A DNA stretch of 64,000 nt from Ilyobacter polytropus DSM 2926 (GTDB taxonomy: Bacteria > Fusobacteriota > Fusobacteriia > Fusobacteriales > Fusobacteriaceae). The stretch lies in NCBI RefSeq assembly GCF_000165505.1, contig NC_014632.1:806001-870000 (forward strand). Reading direction: 5' to 3'. Made by a program: the position numbers and the translations under genes. Below the pieces are notes generated by a model. It did not search any database. It was not told the origin of the DNA and saw only the letters and a program-made list of their open reading frames with translations. This document shows positions 34,561 to 55,746 of this stretch, piece after piece; within the stretch, counting starts at the first letter, position 1; each line of letters opens with the position of its first letter.

Positions 34561-36426
34561 TTATTTCTCTAAAGGTTTCTTGAGAGTACCGATAAGAAGT
34601 GCCGCTAGTGAAGAACCGGCTATAATGGCAACTAAATACATCGCTGCATTTTTTACAAGAGGGATAACAAATAAACCTCCGTGAGGAGCAGGTAATTCAC
34701 AACCAAACATCATCGCTAATCCACCTGCTACAGCCGAACCTAATATGCACGCCGGGATAACTCTTCCAGGATCTGCAGCGGCAAAAGGAATTGCCCCTTC
34801 AGTTATGAATGAAGCACCCATGATGTAATTTGTGAGTCCAGATTCCCTCTCTTGAAGAGAGAACTTATTTTTAAAGAATGTAGTTGCCAGTGCAATGGCT
34901 ATAGGGGGAACCATTCCTCCTGCCATAACAGCAGCATGAGGAGCGAGGTTTCCAGATTCGATGGCGGCTATACCAAATGTAAATGCTGCTTTGTTTACAG
35001 GTCCGCCCATATCTACAGCCATCATTCCACCAAGGACTATTCCCATAAGAACAAGGTTTCCTGTACCCATATTAGTCAGGAAGTTTGCCATAGCTGCATT
35101 AATAGAAACTACAGGTATCAATATAATTTTCATAGCAAGTCCAGTAAAGAGAAGTCCTAAAATAGGGAAAATAAGGACAGGTTTTAAGCCTTCTAATGTT
35201 TGTGGCATTCCACTTGTAGCTTTTTTTACTGCACGAACTATATATCCACCTATGAAACCGGCAATTAGACCACCTAAGAAACCTCCACCTTGGTTGGCAG
35301 CCATAAAACCACCGACCATAGCAGGCATGAATCCAGGTCTGTCAGCTATAGACATACCGATAAATCCTGCAAGGATAGGTATCATAAGAGCAAAAGCTCC
35401 TCCCCCACCGACATCCATAAGGAATTTTGCTATAGGACTAAATGTAGGATCATTTGGATCAAATGCCTTTATTCCAAACATAAAGGATATGGCAATCAGG
35501 ATTCCACCAGCAACAACGAAAGGAAGCATGTTAGAAACTCCGTTCATAAGGTGTTTATAGAAACCTTTTCTTTCACCAGACGAAGAGCTGTTGCTTTTTT
35601 CACCTGATGCCTTGTACACAGGAGCTTCTTTATTTAAAGCTTTTTTTATAAGACCTTCAGGGTCTCTTATACCCTCTTTTACAGGAACTTCTAGAAGAAA
35701 TTTTCCATCAAATCGATCCATTTCTACTTTTTTGTCAGCTGCAATAATTATAGCCGCTGCATTGTCTATCTCTTCTTTAGTCAGAGGATTTTTTATACCA
35801 GTTGATCCGTTAGTCTCAACTTTTATATTTATTCCCATCTCTTGGGCTTTCTTCTTGAGGGAATCAGCAGCCATGTATGTGTGTGCAATTCCCGTAGGGC
35901 AGGCAGTTACTGCCAGTAAAAATCCTTTTTCCTCTGAATCCATTACATTGTTTTCTTCTGAACTTTCTTCTTCTGAATCTTTTTTGGAAATTATTGATAC
36001 TACCTCTTCTTTTGTTTCAGCTTTTAACAAGGCTTCTCTGAAATCATCATCAAGAAGTGAAGTGGTTAATTTTGTAAGAGTTTCTATATGAGAATCACTA
36101 GCTCCTTCTGATGCAGCTATCATGAAAAATAACTGAGAAGGTTCACCGTCAAGAGCATCATAATCTACTCCTGATCTGTGAAGACCAAAGGCAAGAGCAG
36201 GTGTTTTAACTGCCGCCACTTTTGCATGGGGAATAGCTATTCCTTCTTCGAGTCCTGTAGAGGACTGGGATTCTCTTTTTAATATTGCTTCTCGATAGGC
36301 ATTTTTATCAGATAATTTTCCGGATTTATCTAGAGCCTCTATAAGTTCGTCAATAACAGCTTCTTTTGTATCGCCCTTTAGATCCATAACCATGGTATTT
36401 TTTTCTAATAAATCTAAAATTTTCAT
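34561..36426 (-). CDS. fruA: Fructose PTS transporter, EIIABC fusion
   Basis: A 621-residue three-domain PTS protein. IIA (1-145) has the phospho-His in GIAIPHAK (His67), IIB (170-265) begins FLLAVTACPTGIAHTYMAA with the phospho-Cys, and IIC (about 285-621) is a membrane domain beginning NGVSNMLPFVVAGG. It imports fructose as fructose 1-phosphate. The neighbouring 1-phosphofructokinase (13-nt gap) and DeoR regulator make the substrate assignment firm. The domain order A-B-C matches Gram-positive and fusobacterial FruA. A paralogue with the same layout is at 46781-48712. Confidence 0.93.
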   Translation of the reverse strand: MKILDLLEKNTMVMDLKGDTKEAVIDELIEALDKSGKLSDKNAYREAILKRESQSSTGLEEGIAIPHAKVAAVKTPALAFGLHRSGVDYDALDGEPSQLFFMIAASEGASDSHIETLTKLTTSLLDDDFREALLKAETKEEVVSIISKKDSEEESSEENNVMDSEEKGFLLAVTACPTGIAHTYMAADSLKKKAQEMGINIKVETNGSTGIKNPLTKEEIDNAAAIIIAADKKVEMDRFDGKFLLEVPVKEGIRDPEGLIKKALNKEAPVYKASGEKSNSSSSGERKGFYKHLMNGVSNMLPFVVAGGILIAISFMFGIKAFDPNDPTFSPIAKFLMDVGGGGAFALMIPILAGFIGMSIADRPGFMPAMVGGFMAANQGGGFLGGLIAGFIGGYIVRAVKKATSGMPQTLEGLKPVLIFPILGLLFTGLAMKIILIPVVSINAAMANFLTNMGTGNLVLMGIVLGGMMAVDMGGPVNKAAFTFGIAAIESGNLAPHAAVMAGGMVPPIAIALATTFFKNKFSLQERESGLTNYIMGASFITEGAIPFAAADPGRVIPACILGSAVAGGLAMMFGCELPAPHGGLFVIPLVKNAAMYLVAIIAGSSLAALLIGTLKKPLEK

Positions 36427-44799: not shown

Positions 44800-44813
44800 C
44801 TTGTATAGACAAG
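44800..44813. promoter_or_regulatory. GntR-type operator overlapping the manA promoter
   Basis: CTTGTATAGACAAG matches the two sites upstream of the PTS gene (46703, 46748) at 12 or 13 of 14 positions. It overlaps the -35 box of the promoter at 44806-44834, so bound regulator would block transcription of manA and its own gene. Confidence 0.7.
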
Positions 44814-44834
44814 CCGACTGAATTTAAGTATAAT
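44806..44834 (+). promoter_or_regulatory. Promoter of the manA-regulator unit
   Basis: TAGACA, 17-bp spacer, perfect TATAAT, with a leader of only about 16 nt before the AAGGAGG-preceded ATG. The -35 box lies within the 44800-44813 operator. Confidence 0.7.
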
Positions 44835-44856
44835 AGAATTAAAAAGGAGGGATAAA

Positions 44857-45825
44857 ATGTATCCGTTAAAATTTAAAAAATGTTTTATCGAAAAAATATG
44901 GGGGGGAAGAGCCTTTGAAAGCGTCCTCGATATAAAGCTTCCTGAAAATAAAAAAATAGGTGAGTTGTGGGAAGTAAGTTCTCATAAAAACGGGATGTCT
45001 TATGTTGAAAATGGAGATTTAGCAGGTAAAAGCCTCGAAGAACTAATGGAGAGTTCAGGTGAAGAACTTCTAGGAAAAGAAGTCTATAACAGGTTTAAGG
45101 GAAAATTTCCTGTTCTTATAAAGTATCTTGATGTAAATGACAGACTTTCTGTACAGGTTCATCCTAGTGACGAATACGCCCTGAGAGTAGAAAAAGAATT
45201 CGGTAAGTCTGAAGCTTGGTATATAATAGATGCCAGCCCTGATGCCAAACTTATAATGGGACTTAAGGAAGGAATGACAAAAGAAGAGTTTACAGAAAAA
45301 GCCAAGGCTGGAAACTTTGAAGATATGTTTAATATAATATCAGTAAATAAAGGTGACTGCATCTATGTGAAACCAGGTCTAGTTCATGCAAGTCTAGAGG
45401 GGTCTGTAGTGATCTGTGAAGTTCAGCAAAATTCAGACACCACGTACAGAATATATGACTTTGACAGGGTGACAGACGGAAAGAAGAGAGAACTTCATAT
45501 AGACAAGGCAGCAGATGTTATAAATTTTGATGAACATCCAGAGATAACCACTGTAGATACCAGAAAAAGTATCAGACTAGAAGGGGCAGTGAAGGAAGAG
45601 GTAGTTAGATGCCAGTACTTTAATATTGACAGACTTCAAGTAGAAGGAGTCTATGATGACCAGGTGAGTCCGAGTTTTAGAGTATACTCCATCCTTGAGG
45701 GCGAGGGTAAGATTGTTCACTCTGGAAAAGAGTATTCTGCTAAAAAGGGGGATACATATTTTATTCCGGCAGGACTAGATGTGAGTATAGAGGGAAAATT
45801 GGATATACTGAAATCCTTTCTGTAA
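44857..45825 (+). CDS. manA: Mannose-6-phosphate isomerase, class I
   Basis: A 322-residue zinc enzyme interconverting mannose 6-phosphate and fructose 6-phosphate. The N-terminal FKKCFIEKIWGGRAFE, the LIKYLDVNDRLSVQVHPSD block near residue 90 (zinc ligands), the KPGLVHASLEG segment near 174 and VICEVQQNSDTTYRIYDFDR near 190 follow the ManA/GMP-like cupin pattern. Placed directly before the GntR regulator and the PTS-mannosidase genes, it would feed the mannose 6-phosphate released by the mannosidase into glycolysis. Confidence 0.93.
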   Translation: MYPLKFKKCFIEKIWGGRAFESVLDIKLPENKKIGELWEVSSHKNGMSYVENGDLAGKSLEELMESSGEELLGKEVYNRFKGKFPVLIKYLDVNDRLSVQVHPSDEYALRVEKEFGKSEAWYIIDASPDAKLIMGLKEGMTKEEFTEKAKAGNFEDMFNIISVNKGDCIYVKPGLVHASLEGSVVICEVQQNSDTTYRIYDFDRVTDGKKRELHIDKAADVINFDEHPEITTVDTRKSIRLEGAVKEEVVRCQYFNIDRLQVEGVYDDQVSPSFRVYSILEGEGKIVHSGKEYSAKKGDTYFIPAGLDVSIEGKLDILKSFL

Positions 45826-45837
45826 AGGGGGAAAATA

Positions 45838-46560
45838 ATGCTAACAAAACATGAAGAGATAGAAAAATTTATATTAAATGGAGTAATTAAAGGAAATTAC
45901 AAACCCGATGAGAAGGTGCCTTCGGAAAATCAGCTGGCTGAAAGTTTTTCTGTAAGCAGGATGACAGCCAGAAAAGCCCTTGATACCCTGGTAACCAAGG
46001 GTTATTTATACAAGATCAAGGGTAAGGGAACCTATGTAAAAGACAGGGAGAACAGGGATATAATCTATCTAGACGAGATGATAGGTTTTACGAAAAGGGT
46101 AAGGAGAACAGGAAAAGTTCCACGAACAGACGTAAAAGCCTTTGAACTAATAAAGCCAAGTGAAGATATAGCAGCTAGGCTTGGAATTACAACTAAAGAT
46201 GATGTGTATTATATCGAAAGAATCCGTAATATAGATAATGAGCCCGTTATTTTAGAGGTGACTTATATGCCTGCTTATATATCTCCTGATCTCACAATAG
46301 ATCATGTACAAAAGTCAAAATATGATTACCTAAGAGCAAAAGGGCACCGGATAGAAGAGATGGTCAAAGAATATATCCCGGTAATTCCTGAATCTAAAGT
46401 AAGGGAGGATCTTTCTTTAGATAAAAATATGACTGTATTTAAAATAGAACTTATTTCTATATTAGAGGACAGGAGTATATTTGAGTATACTAAATTGTAC
46501 TATAATCAAAATAAATACAGATTTCTTCAGATAACAAAAAACACCGGAAAGAGTTTTTAA
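45838..46560 (+). CDS. mngR: GntR-family (HutC/UTRA) regulator, MngR-like
   Basis: A 240-residue regulator. The N-terminal winged helix (KPDEKVPSENQLAESFSVSRMTARKALDTLVTKGYLYKIKGKGTYV, residues 22-66) is followed by a UTRA ligand domain with the YIERIRNIDNEPVILEVTYMP pattern. E. coli MngR, which represses mannosylglycerate genes, is of this type. Three palindromic sites (44800, 46703, 46748) lie upstream of its own unit and of the PTS gene, as expected for autoregulation. GGGGGAAAA precedes the ATG, 13 nt after manA. A terminator overlaps its stop codon. Confidence 0.85.
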   Translation: MLTKHEEIEKFILNGVIKGNYKPDEKVPSENQLAESFSVSRMTARKALDTLVTKGYLYKIKGKGTYVKDRENRDIIYLDEMIGFTKRVRRTGKVPRTDVKAFELIKPSEDIAARLGITTKDDVYYIERIRNIDNEPVILEVTYMPAYISPDLTIDHVQKSKYDYLRAKGHRIEEMVKEYIPVIPESKVREDLSLDKNMTVFKIELISILEDRSIFEYTKLYYNQNKYRFLQITKNTGKSF

Positions 46561-46577
46561 TCTTCTGGTGTTTTTTT
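46539..46577 (+). terminator. Terminator after the GntR regulator
   Basis: AACACCGGAAAGA pairs imperfectly with TCTTCTGGTGTT, then a seven-T run. Its left arm and loop include the stop codon. It separates the manA-regulator unit from the PTS operon. Confidence 0.75.
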
Positions 46578-46616
46578 CTGAAAATCAAAAAATCTTAAAA
46601 TTTTTTAAAATATATA

Positions 46617-46645
46617 TTGACAAATAAAGAAATAGAATATATCAT
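46617..46645 (+). promoter_or_regulatory. Promoter of the mngA-mngB operon
   Basis: Perfect TTGACA, 17-bp spacer, TATCAT. Both operator copies lie about 50 and 95 bp downstream of the expected start site, in the leader, so repression would be by roadblock or looping unless a second promoter exists. Confidence 0.55.
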
Positions 46646-46702
46646 TGTGTTAACAAAGCAAACTAGTAGAACGGAAAGAGGTCATTTTTTTTAACAATGA
46701 TT

Positions 46703-46716
46703 GTTGTATATACAAC
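46703..46716. promoter_or_regulatory. GntR-type operator 1 upstream of mngA
   Basis: GTTGTATATACAAC, a perfect 14-bp palindrome. TTGTATATACAA is also the core bound by the related UTRA regulator TreR of Bacillus, so the assignment fits the family. Confidence 0.72.
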
Positions 46717-46747
46717 TAACTGAAGCAATATTTTTTTAAGCCTTTAC

Positions 46748-46761
46748 CTTGTATATACATG
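46748..46761. promoter_or_regulatory. GntR-type operator 2 upstream of mngA
   Basis: CTTGTATATACATG, centred exactly 45 bp from operator 1 and about 20 bp before the mngA ATG. One arm base differs from the palindrome. Confidence 0.65.
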
Positions 46762-46780
46762 TAAAAATAAGGAGGAGACC

Positions 46781-48712
46781 ATGGATTTAAGAAAGTTAAC
46801 AAATGAGAATCTGATATTTTTGAACTCTGATTTTAAAAACAAAAAAGAGATACTGGATGTTTTTATCCAAAAACTTTATGACGAGGGTAAAATAACATCA
46901 AAGGAAGAATTCTATTCTGCAGTTATGGAGAGAGAGGCTATAGGGGCAACAGGGATAGGAGAGGGATTGGCTATTCCTCATGGTAAATCAGATGCAGTAA
47001 AAGAGGCATCATTTGTAGTTGCAACTCTTAATAATGAAATGGAATGGGAAACCCTAGATGAGGAACCTGTAAATCTTGTAATTTTACTGGCTATACCAAA
47101 ATCTGAAGAAGGAAGCACTCATGTTGACCTGCTGGCCAAGCTTACTACAAAGTTAGCAGATGATGACTTTAGAGAAGAACTGGTAAAATCAAAAGACCAA
47201 AAAGAATTTATAGATAAACTTAACATAGGTGAAGATACAGAAAAGTCAGAAGAAGTAATGGCTGAGGATGCCAAGACAATAGTAGCAGTAACAGCCTGTC
47301 CTGCAGGAATAGCTCATACTTATATGGCAGCAGAGGCCTTAGAAAAGGCGGGTAGAAAGCTAGGAGTAAGAGTAAAGGTAGAAAAACAAGGGGCAATGGG
47401 TATAGAGGACAGGATAACAGATGAAGATCTAAATAATGCTCATGCAGCTATATTTGCTGTGGAAGTAGCAGTAAAAGAAGCAGAAAGATTTGACGGAATT
47501 CCTGCAGTGGAAACTGCAGTAGCAGATCCTCTAAAAAGAGCAGAAGGGATAATAAAAGAAGCTCTAGAAGCTGGAAAAGATGGTAGAACTGCAGCGAAAA
47601 GAACTTCTACTCCTAGAAAAGAGATGTCAGCAGGAGAAGAGGCTAAGAAAGCACTTCTAAACGGGATATCACATATAGTTCCTCTAATCGTAGCAGGAGG
47701 TACTGTACTTGCAATAGCAGTTCTTATAAAGGAGATATTTGGTCTTCAGGAACTTTATGGTCAGGAAGGATCTTGGCTATGGATGTATAGAAAACTTTCA
47801 GGTGGAATGTTAGGAACACTAATGGTTCCTGTACTAGCAGCTTATGTGTCTTTCTCTTTAGCAGATAAACCTGGACTTGGGCCTGGATTTGCAGCTGGAC
47901 TTGCAGCTAATCTCATCAGTAGTGGATTCCTAGGCGGTATCGCAGGAGGTTTCATCGCAGGTTACACAATGAAATGGGTTAAGAAAAACGTAAGAGGTCC
48001 TCAGCATTTAAACGGATTCTTTACTTTCTATCTTTACCCTGTAATTGGTACATTGGTAGCAGGTTCACTTATGTTGTTCGTAGTAGGAAAGCCTGTGGCG
48101 GCTCTGAATACTGGTCTTACAAATTACCTTAACGGTCTGTCTGGTGGAAACGCTATGCTTCTAGGAGCAATAATCGGAGCAATGGTTTCATTTGACCTTG
48201 GGGGACCTGTAAACAAGGCAGCTTACGCATTCTGTGTAGGATCTATGGCAAACGGAAACTTTATGCCTTATGCAACATTTGCTTCTTGTAAAATGGTATC
48301 GGCTTTCACAACAACTTTAGCTACAAAACTCAGGCCACATCTTTATTCTGAAGAGGAGATTCAGTGCGGAAACTCAACTTGGATTTTAGGATTAGCAGGA
48401 ATCACAGAGGGAGCTATCCCACTTATGATAGAAGATCCATTTAGAGTTATTCCTTCATTTGTAGTAGGAACTGCAGTTACAGGTGCTATGGTAGCATCAA
48501 CAGGAATAGGACTACAGGTTCCTGGAGCTGGAATAATCTCTATGTTTGTATTAGAAGCTGGAAAACTATCAAAATTAACAGAGGCTGGAATATGGCTAGG
48601 TGCAGCTTTAGTTGGTACAGCAATATCCACTGTGGTTTTGACAGTTTTAAGAAGTAAAAAGCATAAATTATTGAAACAGCAAGCACACATGGAAAATGCT
48701 CACACAATATAA
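46781..48712 (+). CDS. mngA: PTS EIIABC of the fructose/mannosylglycerate family, MngA-like
   Basis: A 643-residue three-domain PTS transporter. IIA has phospho-His67 in GLAIPHGK, IIB begins VAVTACPAGIAHTYMAA near residue 170 with its phospho-Cys, and IIC is a membrane domain from about residue 285 with VNKAAYAFCVGSM. It resembles fruA at 34561 but ends differently. Placed between a MngR-like regulator and a GH38 mannosidase, it most likely imports 2-O-alpha-mannosyl-D-glycerate with phosphorylation at C6 of mannose. Another mannosyl sugar acid or disaccharide cannot be excluded. GGAGGAG precedes the ATG. Confidence 0.85.
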   Translation: MDLRKLTNENLIFLNSDFKNKKEILDVFIQKLYDEGKITSKEEFYSAVMEREAIGATGIGEGLAIPHGKSDAVKEASFVVATLNNEMEWETLDEEPVNLVILLAIPKSEEGSTHVDLLAKLTTKLADDDFREELVKSKDQKEFIDKLNIGEDTEKSEEVMAEDAKTIVAVTACPAGIAHTYMAAEALEKAGRKLGVRVKVEKQGAMGIEDRITDEDLNNAHAAIFAVEVAVKEAERFDGIPAVETAVADPLKRAEGIIKEALEAGKDGRTAAKRTSTPRKEMSAGEEAKKALLNGISHIVPLIVAGGTVLAIAVLIKEIFGLQELYGQEGSWLWMYRKLSGGMLGTLMVPVLAAYVSFSLADKPGLGPGFAAGLAANLISSGFLGGIAGGFIAGYTMKWVKKNVRGPQHLNGFFTFYLYPVIGTLVAGSLMLFVVGKPVAALNTGLTNYLNGLSGGNAMLLGAIIGAMVSFDLGGPVNKAAYAFCVGSMANGNFMPYATFASCKMVSAFTTTLATKLRPHLYSEEEIQCGNSTWILGLAGITEGAIPLMIEDPFRVIPSFVVGTAVTGAMVASTGIGLQVPGAGIISMFVLEAGKLSKLTEAGIWLGAALVGTAISTVVLTVLRSKKHKLLKQQAHMENAHTI

Positions 48713-48744
48713 GCACATTTGTCTAAAAAAGAAGGAGAGTAATT

Positions 48745-51381
48745 ATGAAAAAATATAAAGTACACGTAGTTCCCCATATGCACTGGGACAGAGAATGGTA
48801 CTTCACAACAGAAGAATCAAGAATCCTACTCTTAAACAACATGGAGGAAATACTTGAAAGGCTTGAAACTGATCCCCAGTATAAGTATTATGTACTAGAC
48901 GGTCAGACAGCTGTACTGGAAGATTATTTTGCCATAAAACCTGAAAATAAAGATAGAATCAAAGCTCTTGTACAGGCTGGAAAGCTGATTATAGGTCCGT
49001 GGTATTCTCAGACAGATTCTATAATTGTAAACGGAGAATCTATAACCAGAAATCTTTTATATGGAATAAAAGACTGTAAAGAGTTTGGACCTCATATGTC
49101 GATCGGTTATATCCCTGATTCTTTTGGACAAAGTGAGCAGCTTCCACAGATATTCAATGGTTTCAATATTGATAAAAGTATGTTCTGGAGAGGGTGTTCT
49201 GAGAGACACGGAACTGATAAAACTGAGTTTTACTGGGAAAGTCTTGAGGGAAGTAAGGTATTAAACCAGGTAATGCCACTAGGGTACGCCATAGGTAAAT
49301 ACCTTCCTACAGATAAAGAGGGCCTTAAAAAGAGACTAGATACTTACCTAAAGGTACTAGAGCACGGAGCAACTGGAGAAGCCCTTATTTTACCAAACGG
49401 ACACGATCAGATGCCTCTTCAAAAAAATATATTTGAGGTAATGGATACTCTAAATGAGATGTATCCCCAACATGAATTTTTTATGAGTAACTTTGATGAA
49501 GTATATAAAGATATTGAAAAAAATGCAGACCAACTAGACACAATCAGAGGGGAATTCATAGATGGAAAGTATATGAGGGTTCATAGATCAATCTCATCTA
49601 CTAGAATGGATATAAAAGATATTCATGCAAAACTTGAGTACAGAATTACCAATGTACTTGAGCCCCTCGCCGCTGTTGCAAGCAGTCTTGGGTTTGAATA
49701 TCATCACGGTCTTATAGAGCATATCTGGAAACTTATCATGAAAAACCATGCCCATGACAGTATCGGATGCTGCTGCAGTGACAAGGTTCACAGAGAGATT
49801 TTAGAAAGATTTGTCTTGGCCAGCGATAAGGTAGAGAGTCTTATCATTCATTATAAGAGAAAGATAGCAGATCATTCACCGGCAAAAGACGGTGCAGACA
49901 AACTTGTAGTATATAACCTTCTTCCTAATAAAGTAAAGAGAGTTGTAGACGCAACTGTAAGAATAAGATCCAATGATTTTAGTTTAAAGGATTATGAAGG
50001 AAATAATGTAAAATATAATGTGATTTCAAAGAAGGAGATCGATCCTGGTCTAATTGACAGACAGATCGTTCACTATGGTGTATATGAGCCGTTTTTAGAA
50101 TATGAGATTCAGTTTGAAGCTGCTGTCCCTGCAATGGGATATGAGACATTGTATATATCCAAAGTTGATGCCGAAAACAGTCCAGTAAAGCCAGAAGCTA
50201 AGGAAACACTTGAGAATGAGTTTTATACAGTGAGCTTCAATAAAAATGGTACAATCAACTTGGAAGATAAAGAACTAGACAGAGAGTATAAAAACTTGCT
50301 TCTTCTAGAAGAGGGATCAGATGACGGAGATGAGTATGACTACTCACCCCTTAGACCTGAAGAAGAGATGATCATAACCAATGAAAGTGTAAAAGCTGAT
50401 ATAGATGTATTTAGCCTTGGACTTGAAGAAAAAGCCGTAATAAAATACAGACTTGATCTGCCTCAAAATCTCGAGGACAGAAAGAAGAAGATCATCAACT
50501 CATATAACGACTTTGAAATAGAAGTATCTCTAAAAAAAGGTCAAAAGAGAGTAGATGTAAAAGTAACTATAGATAATAATGTCTCAGATCACAGATTGAG
50601 AATGCATCTGCCTACTCCTTATAAGTCATCTATCTCAGTTGCTGACCAGCATTTCGGATCTATAGAGAGACCTGTACATGACGCTGCTATGGAAGTATGG
50701 GAAAAAGAGAAGTGGAAAGAGATGCCTGTAAGTATCTATTCTATGATGAGTCTAGTGGGACTTCATAACAATGAAGAAGGACTTGCAGTTCTTACCAAAG
50801 GACTGAGAGAGTATGAGGTAATAGGTGAAGGCTATGATACCATTGCAATCACTCTTATGAGAGGTATAGGGGTTCTTGGTAAGGAGGAGTTATACTACAG
50901 ACCAGGAAGACCTTCTGGGATAAAGCTACCTACACCAGACTCTCAAATGCTTGGAAAACAAAGTTATGAGCTTTCTTTATACACTCACAAGGGACCTACA
51001 TTAGAAGGAGAAACATTTAAAGCCGCTAAGGACTATACGACATCTTATGACATCTATAATAAGATTCCTTACGATGCTATGAAACTAAACCTTGAAGACT
51101 TCAAACTGCCTTTAAGCTACAGCCTGTTTGAAGCAGAAGGCAAAGCAGAGCTAAGTGCAGTAAAAATGTCTGAAAACAATGAGTATCTTGTAGTCAGAAT
51201 TTTCAACCCTTACAGAGACAGAGAAATTGACGAGACTCTTATATTTAACAGAGAGTTTAAAGAGGTTAAGGCAGGAAACTTAAATGAAGAGGTCATAGGA
51301 GAGCTGTCTTATGACGGAAACAAAGTGAAGATAGAAAAACTAAAACCTTGCCAAGCTAGAACTATATTATTAAAACTATAA
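48745..51381 (+). CDS. mngB: GH38 alpha-mannosidase, MngB-like
   Basis: An 878-residue glycoside hydrolase family 38 enzyme, nearly the length of E. coli MngB. The N-terminal HVVPHMHWDREWYFT carries zinc-binding His and Asp residues, IGYIPDSFGQSEQLPQIF near residue 130 contains the family's catalytic nucleophile Asp, and KNHAHDSIGCC near 335 supplies further zinc ligands. The C-terminal half is the beta-sandwich part. No signal peptide is visible, so it acts in the cytoplasm on the phosphorylated product of the PTS. GAAGGAG precedes the ATG, 33 nt after mngA. Confidence 0.92.
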   Translation: MKKYKVHVVPHMHWDREWYFTTEESRILLLNNMEEILERLETDPQYKYYVLDGQTAVLEDYFAIKPENKDRIKALVQAGKLIIGPWYSQTDSIIVNGESITRNLLYGIKDCKEFGPHMSIGYIPDSFGQSEQLPQIFNGFNIDKSMFWRGCSERHGTDKTEFYWESLEGSKVLNQVMPLGYAIGKYLPTDKEGLKKRLDTYLKVLEHGATGEALILPNGHDQMPLQKNIFEVMDTLNEMYPQHEFFMSNFDEVYKDIEKNADQLDTIRGEFIDGKYMRVHRSISSTRMDIKDIHAKLEYRITNVLEPLAAVASSLGFEYHHGLIEHIWKLIMKNHAHDSIGCCCSDKVHREILERFVLASDKVESLIIHYKRKIADHSPAKDGADKLVVYNLLPNKVKRVVDATVRIRSNDFSLKDYEGNNVKYNVISKKEIDPGLIDRQIVHYGVYEPFLEYEIQFEAAVPAMGYETLYISKVDAENSPVKPEAKETLENEFYTVSFNKNGTINLEDKELDREYKNLLLLEEGSDDGDEYDYSPLRPEEEMIITNESVKADIDVFSLGLEEKAVIKYRLDLPQNLEDRKKKIINSYNDFEIEVSLKKGQKRVDVKVTIDNNVSDHRLRMHLPTPYKSSISVADQHFGSIERPVHDAAMEVWEKEKWKEMPVSIYSMMSLVGLHNNEEGLAVLTKGLREYEVIGEGYDTIAITLMRGIGVLGKEELYYRPGRPSGIKLPTPDSQMLGKQSYELSLYTHKGPTLEGETFKAAKDYTTSYDIYNKIPYDAMKLNLEDFKLPLSYSLFEAEGKAELSAVKMSENNEYLVVRIFNPYRDREIDETLIFNREFKEVKAGNLNEEVIGELSYDGNKVKIEKLKPCQARTILLKL

Positions 51382-51384
51382 AAG

Positions 51385-51410
51385 AAGGGCAGCTTAAAGG
51401 CTGCCCTTTT
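51385..51410 (+). terminator. Intercistronic hairpin after mngB
   Basis: AAGGGCAGC, 6-nt loop, GCTGCCCTT, then TT and GCC. The stem is strong but the T run is short, so it is likely an attenuator or 3'-end stabiliser rather than a full stop before glycerate kinase. Confidence 0.65.
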
Positions 51411-51451
51411 GCCAATAAAATCAGGTTAAATATAAACTAGGAGGAGATAAA

Positions 51452-52600
51452 ATGAAAGTCGTTGTAGCGATAGATTCATTTAAAGGAAGCCTTAGCTCAC
51501 TTGAACTTGGACTGCTTATAGAAAAAGGAGTAAAAAAAGTATATAAAAATGCAGAAGTAAAAAAAGTTCCCATAGCAGATGGTGGAGAGGGGACAGTAGA
51601 AGCCCTTGTAGAGGGAACAAATGGAAAATTTGTAGACATAAAAGTACACGATCCTCTCATGAGAGTTATTGATGCAAGATACGGGATAATGGGAAATAAT
51701 GTGGCTGTTATAGAAATGGCTGAGGCCTCTGGACTGCCCCTTTTAAAACCTGAGGAAAGAGATCTAAGAAAAGCTACAACATATGGTACAGGGGAACTTA
51801 TAAAAGATGCCGTTGAAAAAGGATGTAGAGAGTTTATCATCGGTATAGGGGGAAGTGCCACAAATGATGCAGGTCTTGGAATGATGCAGGCCCTTGGATA
51901 TAAATTTATGGATAAAGATGGAGAAGTTCTTGGTTACGGTGGAGAAATAATGGAAAAAGTCGCCGAGATAGATTCTAGAGGAGCTATAGAGGGTCTTGAT
52001 AAGTGTAAATTTAATATAGCTTGTGACGTGGATAATCCTTTCTATGGGCCTAGAGGCGCTGCTCATGTATATAGCAGACAAAAGGGGGCCGATGATGAAA
52101 TGGTGGAGTATTTAGACTCATCCCTTCAAAAGCTGGCCTTGACTCTGAAGGAAAAGACATGTAAAGATATAGCAGAAATACCTGGAGCAGGAGCAGCAGG
52201 AGGTCTAGGAGGAGGATTTGTAGCCTTCTTAGACGGGGAACTGAAGCCTGGGATAGATATAATTCTTCAGGAAGTTGGACTTGCTGAGAGTATAGAGGGC
52301 GCCGACTTTGTAATAACCGGTGAAGGGAAAATAGACTTCCAGTCTATTATGGGTAAGGCCCCTATGGGTGTATCCAAACTTTCTAGAGAAAAGGGGATTC
52401 CTGTCATCGCAATCGCAGGATGTGTAGCAGATGATGCAGGAGCTATGCATGATCATGGTTTAGATGCCTTCTTCTCCACGATCAATTACCCTGTCTCTCT
52501 CGAAGATGCAATGGATAAGGAAAGAGCCGGTATTTTTGTAGAAAAGAATATAGAAGAAATATTCAGACTTGTAAAAATCTGTGAAAAAAAGTTCAGCTAA
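51452..52600 (+). CDS. Glycerate kinase, type I (GlxK/GarK)
   Basis: A 382-residue glycerate kinase that phosphorylates D-glycerate to a phosphoglycerate. The N-terminal MKVVVAIDSFKGSLSS, the PIADGGEGTVEAL segment near residue 46, the GIGGSATNDAGLGM block near 130 and GAGAAGGLGGGFVAFL near 246 are family hallmarks. In this position it would consume the glycerate left after the mannosidase acts, a step that the E. coli mng operon does not encode. GGAGGAG precedes the ATG. It lies 70 nt after mngB behind a hairpin, so it may be partly uncoupled. Confidence 0.93.
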   Translation: MKVVVAIDSFKGSLSSLELGLLIEKGVKKVYKNAEVKKVPIADGGEGTVEALVEGTNGKFVDIKVHDPLMRVIDARYGIMGNNVAVIEMAEASGLPLLKPEERDLRKATTYGTGELIKDAVEKGCREFIIGIGGSATNDAGLGMMQALGYKFMDKDGEVLGYGGEIMEKVAEIDSRGAIEGLDKCKFNIACDVDNPFYGPRGAAHVYSRQKGADDEMVEYLDSSLQKLALTLKEKTCKDIAEIPGAGAAGGLGGGFVAFLDGELKPGIDIILQEVGLAESIEGADFVITGEGKIDFQSIMGKAPMGVSKLSREKGIPVIAIAGCVADDAGAMHDHGLDAFFSTINYPVSLEDAMDKERAGIFVEKNIEEIFRLVKICEKKFS

Positions 52601-52618
52601 GTCATAGAAATACTGATA

Positions 52619-52658
52619 CAGGCTCCTTTGATATAGAGCTCTATATCAAAGGAGCCTG
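52619..52658. terminator. Perfect 40-nt palindrome between convergent genes
   Basis: Two perfect 20-bp arms (left begins CAGGCTCCTTTG, right ends CAAAGGAGCCTG) meet at GAGCTC with no loop bases of their own. It lies between glycerate kinase and the GNAT gene. The T-rich downstream stretch is short, so it may be a bidirectional terminator or another protein-binding or extruded structure. Confidence 0.7.
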
Positions 52659-52663
52659 TTTGC

Positions 52664-53097: not shown

Positions 53098-54975
53098 TTA
53101 CCAGCTTCCGCCGCCACCGCCTCCTGAACCTCCTCCAGAAGAACCACCGCTAGAAGAAGATGACCCAGGTCTTGAGCTCATTGTGTTTCCTATAGAGTTG
53201 ACAGATTGATTTATCTCTCGTATAAAGGAATGAGTGGTAAATCCCCTATACCCCCTATACCAACGAGGTGGTTTGCTAGCGATACCGTCAAATTTGTCCG
53301 CCCATACATTTGTAACTCCAAGAACTATTGCATAAGGTAGTATGTTGTAATAGTATTGAGGATTTTTCTTTACCAGTGTTTCCAATCGGTTCTTTTCGGC
53401 ATGTATCAAAAAGTTTCTAAATCCTTTTAATTTCCCCAAAACTTCGGTACTGTATTCTGTCCTTTTAAGGGTGAATTCTGCAAGGATAAATGAAATAATA
53501 AAAATTATCGCTTTTATAACAAACTCAACTATGTTGAAGACAATACTTAAATTTGCTATTCTGAATATATTAAAGGACACAAATAATATAACTAAAAATG
53601 GTATTATATTCATTATTTTTCTTGAGAGCCTTAGTTTCATATCCTCTCTTTTAACTTCGAAATTCATAATGAATTTAACAGTTTTTTCTGTCACACCGTA
53701 AATTAATAAGGAGATGGCTCCTGCAAATGGAATACTGATATAGAGGTCTCCGGTGAGAAGATAAAATCTGGTGTAACTTTCCAAAAATACAGGAAGTATT
53801 GCCAGTACCTTCATAAAAGCAGAAAGATTTTTACTATTATTTGTATATAACGTCTGAGTCTTAAGAGACTTATGTTTTTTTATGATGCTTTTTACCTTAT
53901 TTGTAATTTTATAAAAATTATTTCTAAGAGATGATAGTTTTACCTTTTCACCGTCACCATATTTATAAAATAATTCGTTGAACATCATTGTCTCATAATA
54001 AGGTGCATCTCTTCTGTCTTTTAGTTTTATAAAAGTATAATCCTTTCCTAACAACATCTTTATCATGCCATTGGTTTCTTCCTCTTCTATTTCAATATAA
54101 CCTTTTTCAGCCCAATAAAATAAAAGTGAAGTAACATCTTTGGTATCTACCGATCCGTCTATCATGTATCCAGCTTCTGCTGGAGTAATACCTTCTGGAG
54201 GATAAAACTCAACTGACTCGATGATTTTTTTGTCTCTTCCGAAAAAGAACCATACAAATGAAATGATTGTGAGAAATAAAATTCCGGCCCATTTTTTTAA
54301 ATAGTAAAGTACATCTAGAGGCCCATTGAATTTAGAGGTATTTCTGTAGTACCCTTCTGGGAGGGGAAGAGCTATTGTCAAAGCTTCTCTAGGACCTAAA
54401 GGTTTCAGAGTCTCTCCACTTATGGTGTTTTTCTCTATACGATAGTCTATACCAGAGCTGTCTGTGCTTCCTCTGATTCCAGATGTAAAGTTTACCTTGC
54501 TTTTGTCAAAATCTGACGGCATCTCTATGGTAAATTTAACTTTTTTTATGGTTGTATCCCATCTGTCCCCTATAATATTGTGATAAAATTCATCCATTTT
54601 TTTATTGCCGTCATCTCCTACAGTATAGTCATAGGAAATAATATATTTTTTCTCTCCTAAAACAAATCTATAGGGGTCTCCTATTTTTATTCGGGTATTA
54701 CTTCCAGAACGTAGCTTTTTGAAAGGTGATCCCTTTACTGCTATGTTGTCAATTTTTACATTTTTCCCATTATAGGTAGATGGAATATCCCGGTAGATTC
54801 CGTGTCTCTCTGTGTCAAAATTTACAAGTAGTTCTTCTTGGATATTATAGCTGTTATTTTCATTTACCTTTATGTCTACAATATAATTTTCTATTGTAAA
54901 GTATTCCTGTCCATAGGCTCCTATAGACAAAACCAGTAGTAGCACAAGGATGTATTTAAAACTTGACCTGAACAT
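53098..54975 (-). CDS. DUF2207 membrane protein with a Gly/Ser-rich tail
   Basis: About 625 residues. An N-terminal signal helix (MFRSSFKYILVLLLVLSIGAYG) leads to an extracytoplasmic domain (IENYIVDIKVNENNSYNIQEEL, the DUF2207 start). A membrane helix near residue 235 is followed by a domain and a multi-helix hydrophobic region near 395-500, then a low-complexity tail, GSSSSSGGSSGGGSGGGGGGSW. Function is unknown; DUF2207 proteins are regularly paired with LemA. The frame is open from 55005, but AAGGAG is spaced for ATG 54975, giving a 20-nt overlap with lemA and likely translational coupling. Confidence 0.82.
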   Translation of the reverse strand: MFRSSFKYILVLLLVLSIGAYGQEYFTIENYIVDIKVNENNSYNIQEELLVNFDTERHGIYRDIPSTYNGKNVKIDNIAVKGSPFKKLRSGSNTRIKIGDPYRFVLGEKKYIISYDYTVGDDGNKKMDEFYHNIIGDRWDTTIKKVKFTIEMPSDFDKSKVNFTSGIRGSTDSSGIDYRIEKNTISGETLKPLGPREALTIALPLPEGYYRNTSKFNGPLDVLYYLKKWAGILFLTIISFVWFFFGRDKKIIESVEFYPPEGITPAEAGYMIDGSVDTKDVTSLLFYWAEKGYIEIEEEETNGMIKMLLGKDYTFIKLKDRRDAPYYETMMFNELFYKYGDGEKVKLSSLRNNFYKITNKVKSIIKKHKSLKTQTLYTNNSKNLSAFMKVLAILPVFLESYTRFYLLTGDLYISIPFAGAISLLIYGVTEKTVKFIMNFEVKREDMKLRLSRKIMNIIPFLVILFVSFNIFRIANLSIVFNIVEFVIKAIIFIISFILAEFTLKRTEYSTEVLGKLKGFRNFLIHAEKNRLETLVKKNPQYYYNILPYAIVLGVTNVWADKFDGIASKPPRWYRGYRGFTTHSFIREINQSVNSIGNTMSSRPGSSSSSGGSSGGGSGGGGGGSW

Positions 54976-55501
54976 TTGATCTCTCCTTTTCATCTGTAAT
55001 TTCAAAATACTCTTTTTGTGTAAAAGAGAATATCTTTGCTATAATCAGGCTTGGAAAGGTTTCACACTTTGTGTTAAAGGACCTCACCACACCGTTATAA
55101 TATTTTCTAGACTGAAGAATATCTCCCTCTATAGTTTCGAGCTGTCCCTGAAGTTTCATAAAGTTACCGTTAGCCTTTAGATCAGGATAGCTTTCAGACA
55201 GTGCAAAGATAGTTTTTAGTGCCCCTGTGAGTTCTCCTTCCATCTTTTGACGGTCTTTGAGATTCCCCGCATTCATAGCCATATTTCTTTTTTCTATGAC
55301 ATTTTCAAGGGTCTTACTTTCATGGGTGGCATATCCCTTTACCGTCTCTACCAGATTTGGTATAAGATCGTATCTTTTCTTTAAATAGACATCCATTGTT
55401 GAAAATGCCTCTTCTACAATATTCTGTAGCTGAACAAAACCGTTGTAGCTCATTGTAGTATAAATTCCTGCGATTAACATAATCGCTGCAAAAAGAATCA
55501 T
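54956..55501 (-). CDS. lemA: LemA-family membrane protein
   Basis: A 181-residue protein with an N-terminal membrane anchor (MILFAAIMLIAGIYTTMSY) and the LemA core helices: the family motif KKRYDLIPNLVETVKGYATHE near residue 42, FALSESYPDLKANGNFMKLQ near 106 and SRKYYNGVVRSFNTKCETFPS near 138. Its exact role is unknown, though LemA proteins often work with a DUF2207 partner. GGGGAGG lies 6 nt before ATG 55501; earlier in-frame starts are within the ribosome binding site region. It overlaps the DUF2207 start by 20 nt. Confidence 0.9.
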   Translation of the reverse strand: MILFAAIMLIAGIYTTMSYNGFVQLQNIVEEAFSTMDVYLKKRYDLIPNLVETVKGYATHESKTLENVIEKRNMAMNAGNLKDRQKMEGELTGALKTIFALSESYPDLKANGNFMKLQGQLETIEGDILQSRKYYNGVVRSFNTKCETFPSLIIAKIFSFTQKEYFEITDEKERSNVQVKF

Positions 55502-55746
55502 ATTTTTCCTCCCCTTCATAATCACTTAATTTCATGATACCATAACCAAAGCCGCGAAACAATGCACATCTAATTTTTCAGATTTTGATTTTTCCACAAT
55601 ATTTTAAATTATGAAAATCTATTGGTATTCAAAAAAATTGTTCAAAAGATTATATTTTATGTTTCAACTCTATTTTACCCCATTTAATCCCAATGTTAAA
55701 AGGTTTTTTATATTTGCAAGAGTATATCAATTATGAGGTGGTTTTC

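Follow-up and report, generated by a model that had tools for sequence, protein, structure and literature searches.

Gene Content of the Locus

Five intact genes follow one another in the same direction on the plus strand between positions 44857 and 52600 of the window, the 64,000-nucleotide stretch of Ilyobacter polytropus DNA analyzed here. They encode, in order, a mannose-6-phosphate isomerase (ManA), a GntR/UTRA regulator, a PTS EIIABC transporter, a GH38 hydrolase and a glycerate kinase; these are the five adjacent genes that a preliminary description had placed here. Two congeneric genomes (G042 and G043) show the same five-gene layout. The genome comprises 3,132,314 bases, and chromosome I, which bears the window, accounts for 2,046,464 of them. 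Proteins were assigned with the equivalog cut-offs of NCBIfam models (NF and TIGR identifiers) and their domains with Pfam, and the two were in agreement.

The transporter gene mngA (46781–48712, plus strand) encodes a member of the fructose superfamily with EIIA, EIIB and EIIC in one chain, as seen from matches to PF00359, PF02302 and PF02378 in this order. Over residues 1–633, the protein scores 996 bits against NF007293 (“PTS 2-O-a-mannosyl-D-glycerate transporter subunit IIABC”), for which the cut-off is 763. The phosphorylatable residues, as read from the translation, are His67 of EIIA in the motif IPHGK and Cys173 of EIIB in the motif CPAGIAHT. The protein is 59% identical to MngA of E. 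coli K-12, and its predicted substrate, by homology, is mannosylglycerate.

The GH38 α-mannosidase gene mngB (48745–51381, plus strand) follows. Its product scores 1243 bits against NF007331 (“mannosylglycerate hydrolase”; cut-off 1138), compared with 1509 bits for E. coli MngB itself, to which it is 54% identical. The metal ligands and nucleophile are His13, Asp15, Asp125 and His337, all in matching motifs; those of the streptococcal relative SpGH38 are His13, Asp15, Asp125 and His351 (PMC2815779). The specificity for a phosphorylated substrate, 2-O-(6-phospho-mannosyl)-D-glycerate, is a prediction by homology.

Several GH38 proteins that are only 36–37% identical to that of the window (loci L122, L124 and L125, in genomes G090, G045 and G076) also pass the NF007331 cut-off, with scores above that of the window’s MngB, and their genes adjoin other fructose-type PTS genes. 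The model may therefore span more than one substrate, and a match to NF007331 by itself does not prove what the enzyme cleaves.

The glycerate kinase gene (51452–52600, plus strand) encodes a protein of the GlxK/GarK class, with 466 bits against TIGR00045 (cut-off 168) and 482 bits against PF02595. The product of this class in E. coli is 2-phosphoglycerate. The genome contains exactly two PF02595 glycerate kinases, which are 88% identical, and the tree places the second as a duplicate that arose within the genus.

The manA gene (44857–45825, plus strand) encodes a class I (short) isomerase of 322 amino acids, which scores 187 bits against TIGR00218 (cut-off 116). It carries the only type I phosphomannose isomerase catalytic domain in the genome, and a separate PF01050 protein, of the isomerase/GDP-mannose pyrophosphorylase type, is encoded elsewhere. 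The regulator gene (45838–46560, plus strand) starts after a gap of 12 bases and encodes a protein of 240 amino acids of the GntR/HutC family, with GntR and UTRA domains. The regulator had been described as MngR-like. This holds for its position and its domain type; its score against the MngR model NF007292, however, is 152 bits, below the equivalog cut-off of 281.

Transcription Units and Candidate Operators

The regulator gene closes with an intrinsic terminator on the plus strand, a stem-loop followed by a T run (46541–46577; fold −17.6 kcal/mol, z = −4.7), whose stem is kept in the congeners. A second, strong terminator with a 19-pair stem follows the glycerate kinase gene (52618–52659, plus strand). 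Since a terminator ends each of them, the genes form two transcription units and not a single operon: manA-mngR and mngA-mngB-glxK. Each unit is preceded by a sigma-70-like promoter (11/12). The one before manA spans 44806–44834; the one before mngA, TTGACA-17-TATCAT, spans 46617–46645 on the plus strand, and the congeners share both its TTGACA hexamer and its TATCAT segment unchanged.

Three similar palindromes accompany these promoters as candidate operators. Before manA, the putative site TTGTATAGACAA (44801–44812, a CTTGTATAGACAAG palindrome) is overlapped by the −35 hexamer of the promoter and is invariant in both congeners. Two more precede mngA: TTGTATATACAA at 46704–46715, where the congeners have TTGTATATACAG, and TTGTATATACAT at 46749–46760, of which CTTGTATATACATG is invariant. 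All three are thus kept in the two congeners with at most one change each, and the surrounding spacers are less conserved. The occurrence of palindromes of the TTGTATATACAA type before both units suggests that the regulator controls them in common.

Near-matches with one mismatch are no commoner in the whole genome than those of a reversed control pattern (eight versus seven), so that the case for the palindromes rests on their position and conservation, and a genome-wide regulon is not claimed. In E. coli, no similar palindrome was found within 260 bases before mngA, where the best candidate has four mismatches.

Related Loci in Other Bacteria

The mngR-mngA-mngB genes of E. coli K-12 (hrsA/farR) were reportedly described by Sampaio et al. 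in 2004. The E. coli system resembles the Ilyobacter locus in its orthologous EIIABC transporter and GH38 hydrolase and in the adjoining GntR/UTRA regulator gene. That regulator is divergently oriented in E. coli, whereas in Ilyobacter it is upstream and co-directional, behind manA, and the two proteins are only 31% identical. As had been pointed out for E. coli, the mng operon there lacks both an isomerase and a kinase gene, unlike that of Ilyobacter; it is flanked by sucD/sdhX and cydA.

If this was meant to imply that the complete set is unique, the comparison of loci does not support it. Among the best 80 of 244 candidate loci (one genome per species), at least 16 hold all five genes, mostly in Vibrio and Psychromonas; several contigs are short, which makes this number a lower bound. 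In the Vibrionaceae and Psychromonas loci that were examined (V. superstes L041, V. breoganii L046 and P. arctica L088), the same five functions are found in one stretch. The order is mngR | mngA-mngB-glxK-manA, with a divergent regulator and with manA downstream. The ManA encoded there is the long form known from E. coli, in contrast to the short class I type of Ilyobacter, and the glycerate kinase is only 37–40% identical to that of Ilyobacter. Oceanobacillus senegalensis (L101), also among the best 80, groups glxK, mngA, mngB and manA as Ilyobacter does, but its kinase gene is read from the other strand, and an MngR-like regulator was not detected at this locus.

The differences in gene order and in ManA type suggest that the Vibrio/Psychromonas and Oceanobacillus sets were assembled separately. 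That the two helper genes turn up again in other orders and from other gene lineages argues well for the pathway, and just as well against the uniqueness of the complete set. The five-gene locus is therefore not new: it is a fuller form of the E. coli system that is also present in marine vibrios. A limited literature search, which does not prove absence, yielded no description of this particular Ilyobacter locus.

Proposed Pathway and Alternatives

Taken together, the five genes very probably constitute a complete module for the utilization of mannosylglycerate (2-O-α-mannosyl-D-glycerate), as judged by homology. MngA would take up mannosylglycerate in a PEP-dependent manner and phosphorylate the mannose at C6, and MngB would hydrolyze the resulting 6-phospho-mannosylglycerate to mannose 6-phosphate and D-glycerate. 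ManA would convert mannose 6-phosphate to fructose 6-phosphate, and the kinase would convert glycerate to phosphoglycerate, probably 2-phosphoglycerate. By these last two conversions, both halves of mannosylglycerate would enter glycolysis. The GntR/UTRA protein is proposed to act as a repressor that binds the TTGTATATACAA-type palindromes before manA-mngR and mngA-mngB-glxK. We infer both this pairing of regulator and operator and the inducer, which would be mannosylglycerate or its phosphorylated form; as the palindromes precede both units, lifting the repression would induce the two terminated units together.

This pathway is the one that had been read from the locus at the outset, and it is borne out in its main parts at the level of homology: MngA and MngB both exceed their equivalog cut-offs with the catalytic and phosphoryl-carrying residues in place, and the kinase and the isomerase, whose assigned roles match precisely what the two products of MngB call for, recur beside mngAB in distant bacteria. 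The hint at a marine or algal food source also fits the host. The type strain CuHbu1T came from anoxic mud of marine origin at Cuxhaven (PMC3035301), and red algae of the Ceramiales are a known source of mannosylglycerate (PMC8490865). On the evidence of this locus, an anaerobic marine fusobacterium is likely to consume this algal osmolyte completely. Few sugars are known to be used by the strain, and mannosylglycerate gives it a growth substrate that can be tested cleanly.

It is rather improbable that the PTS and the GH38 enzyme serve a different α-mannoside, e.g., a manno-oligosaccharide or another mannosyl-acid, with the kinase and isomerase as incidental neighbours. GH38 is a broad family, work on its member SpGH38, an α-mannosidase, has concerned glycans that contain mannose (PMC2815779), and elsewhere in the phylum GH38 proteins go together with EIICB transporters of a quite different kind. 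However, such a substrate has to be reconciled with a transporter and a hydrolase that both lie above their MngA and MngB cut-offs, and it leaves unexplained why a glycerate kinase gene recurs next to them in Vibrio, Psychromonas, Bacillaceae and Fusobacteriota. The chance that the locus recycles mannosylglycerate produced by the cell itself is smaller still, and we consider it slight. In its favour, mannosylglycerate serves as an osmolyte and I. polytropus requires 1% NaCl, but a PTS acts on external substrates, and the genome encodes no mannosyl-3-phosphoglycerate synthase (PF09488). As far as the PF09488 route goes, the substrate is most simply an external one.

A third possibility touches only the extent of the module. 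ManA could be a housekeeping isomerase that is located upstream by chance, in which case the pathway locus would consist of mngR-mngA-mngB-glxK only. We regard this as unlikely, though less so than the two alternatives above. In its favour, ManA is the sole type I isomerase of the genome, and a terminator separates the manA unit from mngA. On the other hand, a conserved palindrome like those of mngA precedes manA, the regulator gene begins shortly downstream of it, and manA adjoins mngB or glxK in vibrios as well. The PF01050 protein could provide the isomerase for biosynthesis. Glucose and fructose are among the listed substrates of I. polytropus, while mannose, maltose, sucrose, trehalose and melezitose are not used (PMC3035301), so that ManA is unlikely to serve free mannose. 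In view of the unused mannose, the PF01050 protein and the palindrome before manA, this ManA is more likely to act in catabolism than to be a housekeeping enzyme only.

A Sister Locus and a Candidate Route for Glucosylglycerate

The only other glycerate kinase gene of the genome, the duplicate mentioned above, belongs to a second locus outside the window, at about 534.7–540.3 kb of chromosome I (L123:4733-10264). The genes there encode, in order, a GntR/UTRA regulator, a GH4 enzyme, an EIICB of the glucose/maltose family, the glycerate kinase and an EIIA. The GH4 enzyme is closest to solved 6-phospho-α-glucosidases, and it has a CDQP motif where maltose-type enzymes carry CDMP. One congener has kept the unit, and a genome from another genus in the same family carries it with disrupted reading frames. 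In a different phylum and in a different gene order, plasmid NZ_CP045340 of Vibrio sp. THAF190c (L206:6035-11229) carries GntR | EIICB-GH4-glycerate kinase, with 75% identity to the sister locus for GH4 and 42% for the kinase.

The sister locus may provide PTS uptake of glucosylglycerate, with hydrolysis of the 6-phosphate to glucose 6-phosphate and glycerate, although the chances for and against this reading appear to be about equal. A linked glycerate kinase was one of the clues to a glycerate-glycoside substrate of glucosylglycerate phosphorylase (GGaP, GH13_18), whose gene clusters contain such a kinase too (PMC7178133), and for this reason glucosylglycerate is the simplest reading here. 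GGaP differs in that it phosphorolyzes the unphosphorylated glucoside, as opposed to PTS uptake and hydrolysis of a 6-phosphate in Ilyobacter. That the organism uses neither maltose nor sucrose, trehalose or melezitose fits the glucosylglycerate reading as well. Against it counts that the GH4 gene is often found without a linked kinase gene: in four genomes of marine vibrio-family bacteria and on a Photobacterium plasmid, GntR, EIICB and GH4 (75–76% identical) are encoded with no kinase gene adjacent. The substrate of this type of GH4 may thus be broader or different. Among the other close fusobacterial kinases whose surroundings were read, most adjoin a gene of about 415 codons, and the one tested encodes a GntP-type permease.

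Ilyobacter may accordingly possess twin, separately regulated PTS routes, mng for mannosylglycerate and the sister locus for 2-O-α-glucosylglycerate, with a kinase that was duplicated within the genus; we see this as an evenly balanced proposition. Glucosylglycerate is probably a main compatible solute of Prochlorococcus (PMC9606707). In a limited search, which is not proof of absence, no PTS route for it was found described. If the reading is true, PTS import of glucosylglycerate would be a new route for heterotrophs. The sister locus would then matter more than that in the window, and it is the part worth an experiment.

Other Observations

In five Fusobacteriota genomes (L147, L148, L149, L157 and L158), a GH4 gene of the same type is grouped with a 241-codon gene, a GH38 gene and a glucose-family EIICB gene. 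The GH4 gene is one gene away from that for GH38, which is about 36% identical to MngB, and the 241-codon gene encodes an RpiR/SIS regulator in the one case tested. The arrangement looks as if a single transporter served both glucosyl and mannosyl substrates. Two further loci (L154:5834-12078 and L155:6517-12808) combine GH38 with an EIICB of the glucose family, a regulator of the RpiR type and a glycerate kinase that is 63–65% identical to the second kinase of the I. polytropus genome; they possibly contain a second, unrelated type of transporter for mannosylglycerate.

Elsewhere in the window, the minus strand encodes a protein (34561–36426) that matches a type 2 PTS EIIA domain and an EIIB domain of the lactose/cellobiose type but no EIIC, and that may belong to a second PTS system in this stretch. 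Just downstream of the mng locus and on the opposite strand, adjoining genes for LemA and a DUF2207 membrane protein occupy positions 53098–55525.
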